From NCBI RefSeq assembly GCF_020715565.1, contig NZ_CP085839.1, positions 1,426,001 through 1,490,000 on the forward strand: a stretch of 64,000 nt of DNA. The letters run 5' to 3'. The stretch is from Nocardioides sp. Kera G14 (GTDB taxonomy: Bacteria; Actinomycetota; Actinomycetes; Propionibacteriales; Nocardioidaceae). Positions within the stretch are counted from its first letter, which is position 1, and each line of letters opens with the position of its first letter. The notes beneath the pieces are model-generated. The model was not told the origin of the DNA and ran no database searches. It was given only the letters and a program-made list of their open reading frames with translations. Positions 8,654 through 61,893 of the stretch are shown here, one piece after another. Both the position numbers and the translations under genes were made by a program.

Positions 8654-10075
8654 CTAGATGTCGTAGTAGAGCTCGAACTCGTGCGGGTGCGGGCGCAGCT
8701 GCACGGGGAGGATCTCGTTGTTGCGCTTGTAGTCGATCCACATCTCGATCAGGTCCTCGGTGAACACGTCACCGACGGTGAGGAAGTCGTGGTCGGCCTC
8801 GAGCGCGTCGAGCACGGCGTTGAGCGAGGTCGGGACCTGGGCGATCTCGGCCTTCTCGTCCGGCGGGAGCTCGTAGATGTCCTTGTCGATCGGCGCGGGC
8901 GGCTCGATCTTGTTCTTGATGCCGTCGATGCCGGCGAGCAGCAGGGCGGAGAACGCGAGGTACGGGTTGGACGACGGGTCCGGGAAGCGGGTCTCGATGC
9001 GCTTCGCCTTCGGGTTCGTGCCCGTGATCGGGATACGAACGGCCGCGGAGCGGTTGCGCGAGGAGTAGACCAGCGAGATCGGGGCCTCGAAGCCCGGCAC
9101 CAGGCGGTGGTAGGAGTTCACCGTCGGGTTGGTGAACGCGAGCACCGAGGCGGCGTGCTTCAGGATGCCGCCGATGTACCAGCGCGCCATGTCCGAGAGA
9201 CCGCCGTAGCCGGCCTCGTCGTAGAAGAGCGGCTCGCCCTCGTTCCAGATGGACTGGTGGACGTGCATGCCCGAGCCGTTGTCGCCGAAGAGCGGCTTCG
9301 GCATGAAGGTGACCGACTTCCCGGCCTCCCACGCGACGTTGCGGACGATGTACTTGAACTTCATGATGTCGTCCGCCGCCTTGAGCAGCGTGTCGAACTT
9401 GTAGTTGATCTCTGCTTGGGCAGCGGTGCCGACCTCGTGGTGGGCGCGCTCGACGAGCAGACCCGACTCCTCGAGGGCCTTGACCATGTCGTCACGCAGG
9501 TCCTGCGTGCCGTCGGTCGGCGTCACCGGGAAGTAACCGCCCTTGGTGCGGACCTGGTAGCCGCGGTTGGCGGTGCCGTCCGGGTTGGTGTCGGCGCCGG
9601 TGTTCCAGACGCCCTCGGCCGAGTCGATCTCGTAGAACGAGTGGTTCATGCCGGTGGAGAACTTCACCTTGTCGAAGATGAAGAACTCGGCCTCGGGGGC
9701 GAAGAACGCGGTGTCGCCGATGCCGGTGCTCTCGAGGTAGGCCAGCGCCTTGCGCGCGATGTTGCGCGGGTCGCGGGAGTAGGCCTCGCCCGTGATCGGG
9801 TCGTGGACGAAGTAGAGGAGCGCGAGGGTCTTCGACTTGCGGAACGGGTCGACGTACGCCGTCGAGACGTCCGGGTAGAGCGCCATGTCGGACTCGTGGA
9901 TCGACTGGAAGCCACGGATCGAGGAGCCGTCGAAGGCCATCGGGTCGAGGTTGAACGACGACACCGGCACCGTCAGGTGCTGCTGGATGCCGGGAAGGTC
10001 GACGAAGCGCACGTCGACGAACTCGACGCCCTCGTCCTTGATGAACTTGAGAAGCTCATCGCCAGTGCTGAACAT
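8654..10075 (-). CDS. glnA: Glutamine synthetase type I (GlnA1)
   Basis: Condenses ammonium and glutamate to glutamine with ATP. The 473-residue length fits GSI-beta. Visible motifs: the N-terminal [37 protein letters not shown], the loop around [19 protein letters not shown], and [11 protein letters not shown] with Tyr401, the expected adenylylation site. This supports control by a GlnE-type adenylyltransferase. GGAGGA precedes the ATG. The promoter carries a GlnR box (10125-10140), indicating induction under nitrogen limitation. A hairpin terminator follows the gene. Confidence 0.97.
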
Positions 10076-10108: not shown

Positions 10109-10140
10109 ACGCTACTCGGGGCGTGTTTCAGGGAGGTAAC
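10109..10140 (-). promoter_or_regulatory. glnA promoter with GlnR box
   Basis: On the minus strand, GTTAC-N6-GAAAC (10125-10140) is a full match to the actinobacterial GlnR consensus GTnAC-N6-GAAAC. Exactly 10 nt separate it from the -10 TAGCGT (10109-10114). The box occupies the -35 position, as expected for an activator. The leader to the ATG would be about 27 nt. The same layout recurs at 61862-61893. Confidence 0.82.
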
Positions 10141-58282: not shown

Positions 58283-59107
58283 TCAGCGCCGGGTGGTCGT
58301 GAAGCCCCAGCGGGCAAGAACGGCATCCTCGACCAGGCTGGCGATCGTGTACAGCAGGATCGACGTCACCGTCACCACGACCACGATCGCCCAGATCTCC
58401 TGGTAGTCCGCATGCGCCTTGGCCAGCGTGATCGAGCCACCGAGGCCCTTGGACGTCAGCAGCCACTCGTAGAGCATCGCGCCGGTGATGGCACCCGGGA
58501 TCGCGATCCGCATCGAGGCGAAGAGCTGCGGCAGCGCGGTCGGCATCGCGACCTTGCGCAGGATCGTCCACCGGCTGCCGCCGTGGACCCGGACGAAGTC
58601 CACCGCCGTGGGGGAGACCGAGCGGAAGCCGACCGCGAGGTTGAGCAGGATCGGGAAGAAGACCACGATCGAGCTGATCAGCGCGGCAGCGACCAGGCCG
58701 TTGCCGAAGATCAGGTAGATCGCCGGAGCCATCGCGAGCAGCGGCACTGTGCGCAGCACCATCGCGACCGGCAGGAACATGAACTCCAGCGGCCGGACCA
58801 GAGCGAAGAGCAGCGCGAGCACGACCGAGCCGATCACGCCCGCCGCGAACCCGAGCGCGGTGTGGCCGAGCGTCACCCAGAGCAGCTGGAGCATGTCGTG
58901 GCGGTGCTCGCTCGGCGGGACCTTGTCCATGCCGGTGGCGAAGAAGTAGTCCCAGACATCCGCGGGCTTCTTGGCGATGTAGGAGTTGGTGTGGCCGCTG
59001 CTGATCAGCCAGGAGACGGCCACCTGCCAGGCCAGGGCCAGGACTCCCATGGAGAGCGCGACCAGGCCGATGGTGGAGCCGATCCGGACGGCAAGACGGC
59101 CCTTCAT
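58283..59107 (-). CDS. ABC importer permease (SsuC/ThiX-like), second permease
   Basis: A 274-residue permease with about six helices. The EAA loop region is around GGSRWTILRKVAMPTALPQL, and AIYLIFGNGLVAAALISSIV and FFPILLNLAVGF are core helices. An uncommon N-terminal periplasmic segment (SYIAKKPADVWDYFFATG) follows helix 1. It starts on the TGATG overlap with the previous permease. With the other permease, ATPase and binding protein it makes a complete importer of the nitrate/taurine/pyrimidine type. Confidence 0.9.
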   Translation of the reverse strand: MKGRLAVRIGSTIGLVALSMGVLALAWQVAVSWLISSGHTNSYIAKKPADVWDYFFATGMDKVPPSEHRHDMLQLLWVTLGHTALGFAAGVIGSVVLALLFALVRPLEFMFLPVAMVLRTVPLLAMAPAIYLIFGNGLVAAALISSIVVFFPILLNLAVGFRSVSPTAVDFVRVHGGSRWTILRKVAMPTALPQLFASMRIAIPGAITGAMLYEWLLTSKGLGGSITLAKAHADYQEIWAIVVVVTVTSILLYTIASLVEDAVLARWGFTTTRR

Positions 59108-59910
59108 CACAGTGCTCCCACTCGGTCGTCGCCCGCGGCCCAGGGCGTGAGAAGCCTGCCGAGCAGGGCGATCAGCCCGTAGGCCACGCCGGCGATCGCG
59201 GCACAGATCAGGGCGATCGCCCAGACCCGCACGGAGTTGCCCGTCGCCTGCGAGGAGACGAGCAGGACGCCGATGCCGGAGTCGACACCGGAGAGGAAGT
59301 ACTCGCCGAGGACGGCTCCGAGGACCGCCATGGGAGCGCCCACCTTGAGCGCCGCGATGATGTTCGGTACGGCGGCGATGAGCTGGACCTTCCGCAGTTG
59401 GGTGATCCTCCCGCCGCCGTACGCCGTGATGACGTCGAGCTGTGTCGAGCTGGCGCTGCGCAGCCCGAGCAGGCAGCCCACAACGGTGGGGAAGATGCAG
59501 AGCAGGGCAGCGAGGAAGACCGCCGCAGCGCGGCTGCCGGCCTGGCCCATGAGGGCCACGATCGGGCCCACCGCCGTGATGGGGATGCAGGAGGTGACCA
59601 CGGCCAGCTGCATCACGAAGCTGTCCAACCGCGGCACCACCAGGACGAGCAGGGCCATGGCGAAGGCGATCACGTCGCCCCACAGGTAGCCGCGCAGCGC
59701 CTCACCCGAGGAGTGGCCGACGGCGCGCCAGTAGACCGAGTCGCCGAAGGCACCGAGGAACTCCTTGGCGACGAGCCACGGCGACGGGATGGCCCCCGGG
59801 TTGCCCGAGGGCGTCACATAGGGGATCGAGGCCAACCACCAGGCCACGACGATGACGACGATGCCGGTGAGCCCGCCTACCCACGGGGTGCGGAGACTGA
59901 GGCTACGCAT
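59107..59910 (-). CDS. ABC importer permease (SsuC/ThiX-like), first permease
   Basis: A 267-residue permease. An N-terminal helix (GGLTGIVVIVVAWWLASI) is followed by the exported segment with PSPWLVAKEFLGAFGD and core helices; the EAA loop contains AYGGGRITQLRKVQLIAAVP. It differs from the second permease, so the membrane part is a heterodimer. Translation overlaps the ATPase gene by 8 nt and the next permease by 1 nt. Confidence 0.9.
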   Translation of the reverse strand: MRSLSLRTPWVGGLTGIVVIVVAWWLASIPYVTPSGNPGAIPSPWLVAKEFLGAFGDSVYWRAVGHSSGEALRGYLWGDVIAFAMALLVLVVPRLDSFVMQLAVVTSCIPITAVGPIVALMGQAGSRAAAVFLAALLCIFPTVVGCLLGLRSASSTQLDVITAYGGGRITQLRKVQLIAAVPNIIAALKVGAPMAVLGAVLGEYFLSGVDSGIGVLLVSSQATGNSVRVWAIALICAAIAGVAYGLIALLGRLLTPWAAGDDRVGAL

Positions 59911-60703
59911 GTCCGAAGAGGATCTCGGAGAGCTGGTCGGCGTAGGCGTGGAACTCCGGGGCCCGCAGGATGTCCGGAGTGCGTGGACGCGGGAGGTCGA
60001 TCTCGACGATCTCGAGGATGCGGCCGGGCCGCGGCGACATGACGGCGACGACGTCGGAGAGGTAGACCGCCTCCGCGATGCCGTGGGTCACCATCAGCGT
60101 GGTGGCGGGCTTCTCGGTCCAGATCCGCTGGAGCTCGTCGTTCATCCGCTGCCGGGTCATGTCATCGAGCGCGCCGAAGGGCTCGTCGAGCAGCATGACG
60201 GTCGGCTGGACCACGAGCGCGCGGGCGATCGAGACGCGCTGGCGCATGCCGCCCGAGAGGTGTGCCGGCTTGGCGTCCTCGAAACCCTTGAGCCCCACGA
60301 GCGCGATCAGGTCGGCGATCAGGCCCTTGTCGGGCTTGAGGCCGGCGACCTCGAGGGGGAGCCGGATGTTCTTCTCCACCGAGCGCCAGGGCAGCAGCGC
60401 CGAGTCCTGGAAGGCGATGCCGACCTCATGTGAGCGCTGCGTCTCCATCGCCGACTTGCCGTTGATCGCGATCTCACCTGTGGTCGGGCTCTCCAGCCCG
60501 GCGAGGATCCGCAGAATCGTCGACTTGCCGCACCCCGAGGGTCCGAGGAGCGAGAGGAAGGAGTTCTCGGTCGTGCCGAGGTCGACCTCGCTCAGGGCCT
60601 GGACCGTCTTGGAGCCGGTCCGGAAGGTCTTGGTGAGGCCATGGATGTTGATCCCCGTGGCGAGGGTGCCCTCGCCACGGGGCTCAAGGGTTGCGAACGA
60701 CAT
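59903..60703 (-). CDS. ABC importer ATP-binding protein
   Basis: A 266-residue ATPase of the nitrate/sulfonate/taurine group. Walker A is LLGPSGCGKSTILR, the Q loop GIAFQDSALLPWRSVEKNI, the signature LSGGMRQRVSIARAL, Walker B VMLLDEPFGALDDMTR, and the switch His is in LMVTHGIAEA. It energises uptake by the two permeases. It shares one base with the end of the binding-protein gene. Confidence 0.93.
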   Translation of the reverse strand: MSFATLEPRGEGTLATGINIHGLTKTFRTGSKTVQALSEVDLGTTENSFLSLLGPSGCGKSTILRILAGLESPTTGEIAINGKSAMETQRSHEVGIAFQDSALLPWRSVEKNIRLPLEVAGLKPDKGLIADLIALVGLKGFEDAKPAHLSGGMRQRVSIARALVVQPTVMLLDEPFGALDDMTRQRMNDELQRIWTEKPATTLMVTHGIAEAVYLSDVVAVMSPRPGRILEIVEIDLPRPRTPDILRAPEFHAYADQLSEILFGHA

Positions 60704-61830
60704 CAGGCAGACGGGATCGTGAACTGCGTCTTGAGGTCGGGGTTCTCCTCGTAGATCTCCTTGATGAGGGAGAGGTCGAAGAGGTCGTCGGCGGCGATGT
60801 CGGTGCCCATGGCCGCCATCGACTTGATGTTCTCCTGGACGAGCTCGTCGGTGATCATGAAGAGCCCGTTGGCGTTGACGTCGTCGGTGAGGATCAGACT
60901 GATCTGTGCGGTGGCCTCACCGGTCTGCTCGGTGACGTCGAGCTTCTGGTCCTTGCCGTAGGTGTTGACGGCGAGCTCGGCCGACTTCGCCGGGTCCTTG
61001 ACGGCGTCGGTCCAGCCCTTGATCTCGGCGATGAGGAAGGCCTTGAGCACGTCCCGCTTGCTCGAGAGCGTGTCGTTGGTGACCGTGAAGGTCTCCGCCA
61101 CGAACGGCAGGCCGTTGTCGGCCAGGGCGAAGACGACCGGGGTGAAGCCGTCGGCCTTGGCGAGGATCGGCTCGTTGGTCGTGTAGGAGAAGTGGGCGTC
61201 GTACTTGCCCTGCTCGAGCGGGGCGATGTCGTACTGCGTGGTGACGACCTCGACGTCGTCGGTCGTGAGGCTGTTCGCCTTGAGGAACCCCTCGAAGATC
61301 GCCTGGTTGCCGCCCGACTGGACGCCGATCTTCTTGCCCTTGAGGTCGTCGATCGTGGTGATCGGCGTCTTCTCCTGGAGTGACATCAGGCAGAAGGGGT
61401 TCTTCTGGTAGGTCGAGCCGATGATCTTCAGCGGCGCGCCCTTGGCGATGGTCGGCGCCGTGATCGCGGGGGACGAGAGGCCGATGAGTGCCTGACCCGA
61501 GATGAGCGCGTCCTCCGCGGTGGTCTGGTCGCCACCGGCGATCAGGTTGACGCTCGAGAAGCCGGCGTCCTTGTAGTAGCCGTTCTGGTCGGCGAAGTAC
61601 TCACCGGCGAACTCGATGTTCTTGATCCAGGAAAGCTTGATCGCGAGGGCCCCGAGGTCCTTGCTTCCCGTGCTGCCGCTGCTGGACGGGCTGTCGCCGG
61701 ACGTGCTGTCGCTGTCGCTGCCGCAGGCGGCGAGGACGCCCACAGCGCCGATGGCGACGACGCCGACACCGCCGGCTCGGATGATCTGTCGGCGGCTCAT
61801 GCCGCTCTGGAAGGCCTCGGGGTTGCCCAT
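60703..61830 (-). CDS. ABC importer substrate-binding lipoprotein (NMT1/THI5-SsuA type)
   Basis: A 375-residue exported binding protein. The N terminus has a Tat-like pair (SRRQIIRAGG), a hydrophobic core and the lipobox VLAACGS, so it is a lipoprotein. The mature part (LSWIKNIEFAGEYFADQNGY, GGDQTTAEDALISGQALIGL, VQSGGNQAIFEGFL) resembles NMT1/THI5-like proteins that bind pyrimidines, nitrate, taurine or related small nitrogen compounds. ATG at 61830 follows GAGGAG. The promoter has a GlnR-like box with the same spacing as glnA, which hints that the ligand is a nitrogen source. The ligand itself is not determined. Confidence 0.9.
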   Translation of the reverse strand: MGNPEAFQSGMSRRQIIRAGGVGVVAIGAVGVLAACGSDSDSTSGDSPSSSGSTGSKDLGALAIKLSWIKNIEFAGEYFADQNGYYKDAGFSSVNLIAGGDQTTAEDALISGQALIGLSSPAITAPTIAKGAPLKIIGSTYQKNPFCLMSLQEKTPITTIDDLKGKKIGVQSGGNQAIFEGFLKANSLTTDDVEVVTTQYDIAPLEQGKYDAHFSYTTNEPILAKADGFTPVVFALADNGLPFVAETFTVTNDTLSSKRDVLKAFLIAEIKGWTDAVKDPAKSAELAVNTYGKDQKLDVTEQTGEATAQISLILTDDVNANGLFMITDELVQENIKSMAAMGTDIAADDLFDLSLIKEIYEENPDLKTQFTIPSA

Positions 61831-61861
61831 GATGCTCCTCAAATCTCGGGATGTTGCGGCG

Positions 61862-61893
61862 ACGCTAATGAGGAGCGGTTACGCGCGTGTTAC
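61862..61893 (-). promoter_or_regulatory. Promoter of the ABC importer with a GlnR-like box
   Basis: On the minus strand GTAAC-N6-GTAAC (61878-61893) is followed after 10 nt by TAGCGT (61862-61867). The -10 hexamer and the 10-nt spacing are identical to those of glnA. The second half-site differs from the GlnR consensus GAAAC at one position. The leader would be about 25 nt. Confidence 0.65.

Follow-up and report, generated by a model that had tools for sequence, protein, structure and literature searches.

A putative GlnR-type promoter of conserved geometry upstream of a candidate purine ABC importer operon in Nocardioides sp. Kera G14

The window (the whole 64-kb stretch of DNA analysed here) carries on its minus strand a four-gene operon for an ABC importer, made up of a binding lipoprotein, an ATPase and two permeases. 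The promoter of this operon, read directly on the minus strand from 61893 to 61862, is GTAAC-N6-GTAAC-N10-TAGCGT. The glnA promoter, at the other end of the window, served as the comparison site. The features are as follows.

61878..61893, minus strand: GlnR-type box GTAACACGCGCGTAAC (half-sites GTAAC and GTAAC around ACGCGC), two half-sites in an 11-bp register, from the sequence and the register of the orthologs
61868..61877, minus strand: 10-nt gap CGCTCCTCAT from the box to the -10-like hexamer, from the sequence and a gap scan with its maximum at 10
61862..61867, minus strand: TAGCGT, presumed -10 element (TAnnnT), from the sequence
60703..61830, minus strand: substrate-binding lipoprotein, PF09084 (NMT1), 375 aa, ATG at 61830, reading frame open from a TTG at 61842
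59903..60703, minus strand: ABC ATPase
59107..59910, minus strand: ABC permease 1
58283..59122, minus strand: ABC permease 2, start codon approximate (reading frame listed as 58283-59683)
10125..10140, minus strand: glnA GlnR box GTTACCTCCCTGAAAC (half-sites GTTAC and GAAAC around CTCCCT), comparison site
10109..10114, minus strand: TAGCGT of glnA, presumed -10 element
8654..10075, minus strand: glnA, 473 aa

The hexamer is separated by 31 nt from the ATG (61830) of the binding-protein gene. Beyond the operon, and not counted in it, are genes for an EmrB-like MFS transporter (on the opposite strand) and a PLP decarboxylase. As the first-pass annotation had claimed, the importer and glnA promoters share their layout: a box, a gap of 10 nt (10124-10115 on the minus strand at glnA) and TAGCGT can be read at both. 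Ahead of the importer gene, the box follows GTnAC-n6-GnAAC on the coding strand, with the one off-consensus base that the annotation had also pointed out, T instead of A in the second half-site.

We analysed how rare this layout is. The box alone is no proof, because boxes with one mismatch reach chance frequency in the window (30 matches, 31 expected); TAGCGT occurs there four times, with 8.4 occurrences expected. In contrast, the full pattern GTNACN6GNAACN10TANNNT has only four sites in the whole 3.47-Mb genome and one in the reversed-pattern control, in agreement with the earlier view that the combination is unlikely by chance. The four sites belong to glnA, the importer, a 2OG-Fe(II) oxygenase gene (841831) and a LacI-type gene (3434182), the last of which is doubtful, as there the hexamer overlaps with the start codon. 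When 78 genomes of the genus were scanned, the pattern gave 31 matches in 22 genomes and the reversed pattern five; six of these 31 matches belong to a single palindromic sequence, nearly identical in each case (GTTACCAC..GAGTAAC-like), and are probably unrelated. Taken by itself, the strict box has 57 strand-hits in the genome and its reversed pattern 25, and its sites include those of genes that we take to be glnA, both amtB genes, an NCS1 permease and a class III aminotransferase. One such site, a GTGAC-N6-GAAAC box at C1:911827, lies before what is presumably an NCS1-type permease gene, followed by a gene that we recognize as an agmatinase-like ureohydrolase. Strict-box counting is, however, a poor regulon finder, as eight of the listed places are palindromes GTTAC-N6-GTAAC (C1:1077604, 1091577, 1092161, 2915000, 2947216, 2991494, 3241949 and 3303797). 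The genes after most of them resemble mutase, thiolase, enoyl-CoA hydratase, acyl-CoA dehydrogenase and CoA transferase; the palindromes probably represent a separate fatty-acid/CoA regulon and false positives in a GlnR-box scan. We regard conservation upstream of orthologous importers as stronger evidence than any of these pattern counts.

We compared the upstream regions of orthologous importers in three sets: a close set of five relatives with 62-67% identity (Subtercola, two Amnibacterium, a MAG and Nakamurella); a family set of 38 importers (E 1.4e-66 or better) among 198 genomes, where weaker matches of 34% identity or less were not taken as orthologs; and a class set of 28 importers with new loci out of the listed class matches (394 genomes). 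Counts of 5/5 in the close set refer to the Kera G14 copy and the four relatives other than Nakamurella, and, since all these sequences are related by descent, none of the counts represent independent events. A relaxed half-site, G..A[CT], followed by N10 and TAnnnT was found in 5/5 close, 36/38 family and 26/28 class regions; other gaps (4 to 16) reached at most 1/5, 4/38 and 8/28, respectively. With the strict half-site G.AA[CT] the counts were 5/5, 34/38 and 2/28. The relaxed pattern was chosen after inspecting the sequences and is thus post hoc; it was later checked with a profile trained on glnA (see below). Half-sites at -48, -37 and -15 together with a gap of 10 were found in 0/5 close, 26/38 family and 25/28 class regions, and at 12 other gaps in none of the regions of any set. 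The Kera G14 arrangement, in which two half-sites follow each other directly at -26 and -15 with N10, showed the opposite distribution (5/5, 0/38 and 0/28). The exact two-site box is thus confined to its own lineage, while the register and the gap are widely conserved. N10 was absent from 2/38 family regions, 2/28 class regions and 5/21 copies in 20 class regions (overlapping sets).

An alignment of 34 family promoters shows strong conservation at -47 to -44 and -35/-34, columns that played no part in selection and that carry 0.8 to 2.0 bits each. Loss of the half-sites in close relatives, named earlier as an observation that would speak against GlnR, was checked in those with 62-67% identity, with a favourable outcome: four of four keep three half-sites in register (-37, -26 and -15), and Nakamurella, without a proximal half-site, has two distal ones in register, GCAAC (-48) and GTAAC (-37), counted from TACAGT. 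Many class relatives (L135-L161, for example L139 and L142) have variant half-sites GTTAC-TTCAC-GCGAT-GATAC in the same 11-bp register, followed by N10 and TAACGT or TAGCGT. The TTCAC unit resembles PhoP repeats, and joint phosphate/nitrogen control is possible.

We then asked whether glnA operators predict importer operators. An a-b-x-b array of half-sites is present in 26/29 glnA regions of relatives (L163-L191), while glnA and the importer of Kera G14 have two half-sites each; it is possible that operators were shortened in this lineage. N10 was found in 21/30 glnA regions, and a gap-8 match also in 14/30. A half-site profile was built from 15 non-redundant arrays out of the 26/29 regions, excluding that of Kera G14 and containing neither the -10 element nor the gap. 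Its best match was followed by TAnnnT at a gap of 10 in 25/38 family and 21/28 class importers and at other gaps in four importer regions (three at 9, one at 11); in the close set, where arrays are shorter, gap 10 was found in 1/5. The best match was antisense in 1/5 close, 5/38 family and 3/28 class regions. With a second profile, which included the -10 element and was based on 10 non-redundant glnA operators, the best match was in sense and ended on TAnnnT in 4/5, 33/38 and 24/28 regions, and exceeded the 95% shuffle mark in 4/5, 35/38 and 25/28. Under this second, four-site profile, the Kera G14 importer was barely over the 95% shuffle mark (-3.0 versus -3.6), and the best match at Kera G14 glnA was on the wrong strand.

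The same geometry recurs at other genes. The 2OG-Fe(II) oxygenase promoter at C1:841831-841862 (L001/L088) reads GTAAC-N6-GCAAC-N10-TAGACT. A gene that we recognize as uraD has GACAC-N6-GAAAC-N10-TATGCT at C1:2515137-2515168 (L131), directly before its start, apparently a near-leaderless GTG. In 30 uraD regions (Kera G14 included; those with loci among 56 uraD matches), the N10 arrangement was found in 11, several of the arrays ending in TAGCGT, a box without N10 in nine and neither in 10; other gaps reached at most three. A special tie between glnA and the importer through gap and hexamer, as initially proposed, thus fails: N10 with TAGCGT is common to relatives' importer, glnA and uraD promoters, and N10 also precedes other TAnnnT hexamers, including those of uraD and the 2OG oxygenase in Kera G14. 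N10 with TAnnnT looks like the general layout of a promoter class.

We analysed the binding protein for indications of the substrate. It scores 141.1 bits against the Pfam model PF09084 (NMT1/Thi5-like; cut-off 20.5), and only 54.9 bits against the aliphatic sulfonate model SsuA, TIGR01728 (curated cut-off 163.5). The earlier description 'NMT1/SsuA-type' is therefore no pointer to sulfonates. Sulfonate is unsupported as a substrate, given the SsuA score, the fold and the ortholog context, and the likeness to SsuA (sulfonate), CmpA (bicarbonate) and NrtA (nitrate) binding proteins is that of a general fold. The closest folds are binders of thiamin and pyrimidines (formylaminopyrimidine). The ThiY/Thi5-type proteins (4nmy, 3ix1 and Thi5) are, however, only 13-21% identical to the binding protein, and differ from it in that its family orthologs have purine genes adjoining. 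Fold and gene context together indicate a heteroaromatic base, most likely a purine. Four further genes of the genome encode more distant homologs (27-32% identity to the binding protein), one of them about 20 kb from the purine operon.

The gene context was analysed in 20-kb regions around 17 of the 38 family importers and in 20 class regions. As raw counts, an XDH homolog (at least 55% identity) was found in 15/17 family regions and a gene of the cytidine/guanine-deaminase fold in 16/17. A ureidoglycine-type aminotransferase was present in 13/17, allantoinase in 12/17, uricase in 7/17, adenosine deaminase in 8/17 and a 2OG oxygenase, 52-58% identical to the C1:841831 gene, in 8/17. One family region (L099) contained none of these genes. 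Uricase and allantoinase scored over the cut-offs in Pfam and NCBIfam; for XDH the best models were XdhA, with scores under their cut-offs. Among the class regions, XDH (at least 54% identity) was near the importer in 8/20 and matched more weakly in 3/20; one region (L227) had other purine genes and no XDH, and in 8/20 there was no XDH match, with the other purine genes absent or weak. Because so many relatives adjoin purine-breakdown genes, the importer most likely takes up purines as a nitrogen source. The 'nitrogen compound' of the first-pass annotation can thus be narrowed to purines, and its nitrogen-scavenging role and GlnR-type promoter gain support from the neighbouring purine catabolism, the conserved operator and a GlnR-like gene in the genome (see below).

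The linkage to purine genes is seen in the orthologs; in Kera G14 the importer and the purine genes are not adjacent. The purine operon (uraD-uox-allB-aminotransferase-xdh, at 2.515-2.525 Mb) lies about 1 Mb away, and the 20 kb fetched around it contained no gene of the importer's family. It is possible, though rather unlikely, that the importer is controlled by GlnR and takes up another nitrogen heterocycle (a pyrimidine, a thiamin precursor or hydantoin), or that specificity drifted in the Kera G14 copy. Such a substrate would suit the nearest solved relatives, which bind thiamin and pyrimidines, as well as the class regions without any queried purine gene. It would also suit the separate lineage of this copy, whose relatives adjoin genes of uridine/purine-phosphorylase, nucleoside hydrolase and flavin-monooxygenase type and not a full purine operon; in four close relatives a PNP/uridine-phosphorylase-type gene and/or a nucleoside hydrolase gene is next to the importer. 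However, within the same close lineage deaminase-type genes lie near the importer in Subtercola and an XDH homolog (57%) in Nakamurella, the sister lineages in the family are mostly inside purine-catabolism clusters, and Kera G14 has kept a purine operon whose fetched 20 kb contain no importer gene of the family.

As a candidate regulator, the genome encodes a GlnR-like gene (L115, C1:2817477) with a full-length match (E 2.5e-87) to 8hih_O, M. tuberculosis GlnR. Its receiver domain matches GlnR 4o1h (E 5.4e-26), and its matches to RegX3 (1.8e-27) and MtrA (2e-26) are far weaker than that to 8hih_O. An MtrA-like gene (L118) is, by recognition, also present.

In the published work considered here (PMC10704036, PMC13189361, PMC3662644 and PMC4617892, cited jointly), GlnR operators of actinomycete glnA and amtB genes are described as an a-b-a-b array, gTnAc-n6-GaAAc-n6-GtnAC-n6-GAAAc, and the S. 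venezuelae consensus is given as GTnAC-n6-GTnAC, which the importer site fits. The activation complex is reviewed there as four GlnR DNA-binding domains arranged head-to-tail on four sites. The importer site is like these operators in half-site sequence, 11-bp register and coding-strand position, and in the 10 nt to TAnnnT also seen in 21/30 glnA regions. It differs in having two half-sites only, both of the GTAAC type; of the four in-register half-sites of the activation complex we found two. This weakens membership among GlnR targets and does not exclude it, because single-box GlnR targets (gdhA) are published.

According to the same sources, MtrA sites are direct repeats, GtnAcC-n5-GTnAcn, with the same spacing as GlnR boxes, and MtrA competes with GlnR at Streptomyces nitrogen genes. 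That MtrA or another OmpR-type regulator mainly reads the site, with no role for GlnR at the Kera G14 copy, is a partial rival to the GlnR reading that we consider rather improbable. The equal spacing, the competition, the MtrA-like gene and the GTAAC sequence of both half-sites would be in keeping with such a regulator, and the site matches the MtrA repeat except for one base. That base, however, is A where the sixth base of the consensus is C, and the proximal half-sites in the family are mostly GAAAC or GAAAT, without the T found in all MtrA sites in the published material considered. While the Kera G14 copy alone is not decisive, these two differences are why GlnR is preferred; the prediction of importer operators from relatives' glnA operators, and the nitrogen catabolism genes next to the importer orthologs, also argue against MtrA. 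A chance likeness of box and hexamer, with the operon outside nitrogen regulation, is extremely unlikely: loose boxes do occur at chance frequency in the window, but the full layout is rare genome-wide, its position, register and sharp gap are kept in dozens of relatives, and the genome and genus pattern counts, the gap scan and the glnA-trained profile rule chance out as the main explanation.

From the layout, its conservation, the gene context of the orthologs and the GlnR-like gene, all observed directly, we infer that GlnR probably binds and activates this promoter, which would drive the four genes of an ABC importer whose substrate is a purine base or a compound close to it in purine catabolism. 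Under nitrogen limitation, GlnR would occupy the half-sites, substitute for a -35 element and place RNA polymerase on TAGCGT, 10 nt downstream. The imported purine would then pass through the xanthine dehydrogenase, uricase and allantoinase pathway, encoded elsewhere behind a similar promoter, to yield ammonium. Several findings count against this reading: the site has two of four half-sites, in an arrangement absent from family and class promoters; class sites nearly all need relaxed half-sites, and XDH is near only 8/20; gap-8 matches occur in 14/30 glnA regions and N10 in only 11/30 uraD regions; and about 1 Mb separates the importer from the purine operon in a genome with four weaker homologs.

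The descent of the Kera G14 copy may bear on its distance from the purine operon. In a 72-row tree its binding protein clusters with those of the Microbacteriaceae, the MAG and Nakamurella (support 100/94), and 36/38 family copies with one class copy form a separate clade (support 100/96); the two other family copies, L050 and L114, are elsewhere on long branches. The lineage is not unique to one strain, as a Nocardioides MAG protein (P0002) is 79% identical to the binding protein. The simplest reading would be that an importer of different descent was acquired horizontally and that the usual copy was lost from the purine operon; an old paralog is the alternative. A broader picture, which we put forward tentatively and rate somewhat below even, is that actinobacterial NMT1/Thi5-type importers include a purine-devoted branch whose GlnR promoter is ancient and fixed in its geometry (half-sites at 11-bp intervals, the last one 10 nt before the -10 element). 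The Kera G14 copy would be a transferred replacement that came with, or retained, a GlnR promoter of its own, so that importer and pathway would be joined again only through the regulator.

GlnR control of purine scavenging is already known from published ChIP-seq and expression results in M. smegmatis. GlnR peaks there lie before MSMEG1292/1293 (a dehydrogenase and a xanthine/uracil permease), three further nucleobase-type permeases, two PucR-family regulators and a putative allantoicase; its purine genes include the deaminase MSMEG1298, and the 2OG oxygenase MSMEG4008 is bound as well. Uricase, OHCU decarboxylase and guanine deaminase are upregulated upon nitrogen limitation. The likeness lies in GlnR-type sites, here predicted, at genes for nucleobase uptake, purine breakdown and a 2OG oxygenase. 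The difference lies in uptake, which in M. smegmatis is annotated to xanthine/uracil and cytosine/purine-type permeases and here would depend on an ABC transporter whose binding protein is of the NMT1/Thi5 type. No such purine importer under GlnR appeared in the titles and abstract openings searched, which cover the literature incompletely. The kind of regulation is thus a known one, and the purine assignment looks new. It would assign purines, as a substrate class that can be tested, to a widespread family of transporters with names such as nitrate/sulfonate or thiamine-pyrimidine-type protein, and the geometric rule of in-register half-sites, 10 nt and TAnnnT may be used to search for GlnR-activated promoters in actinobacterial genomes.
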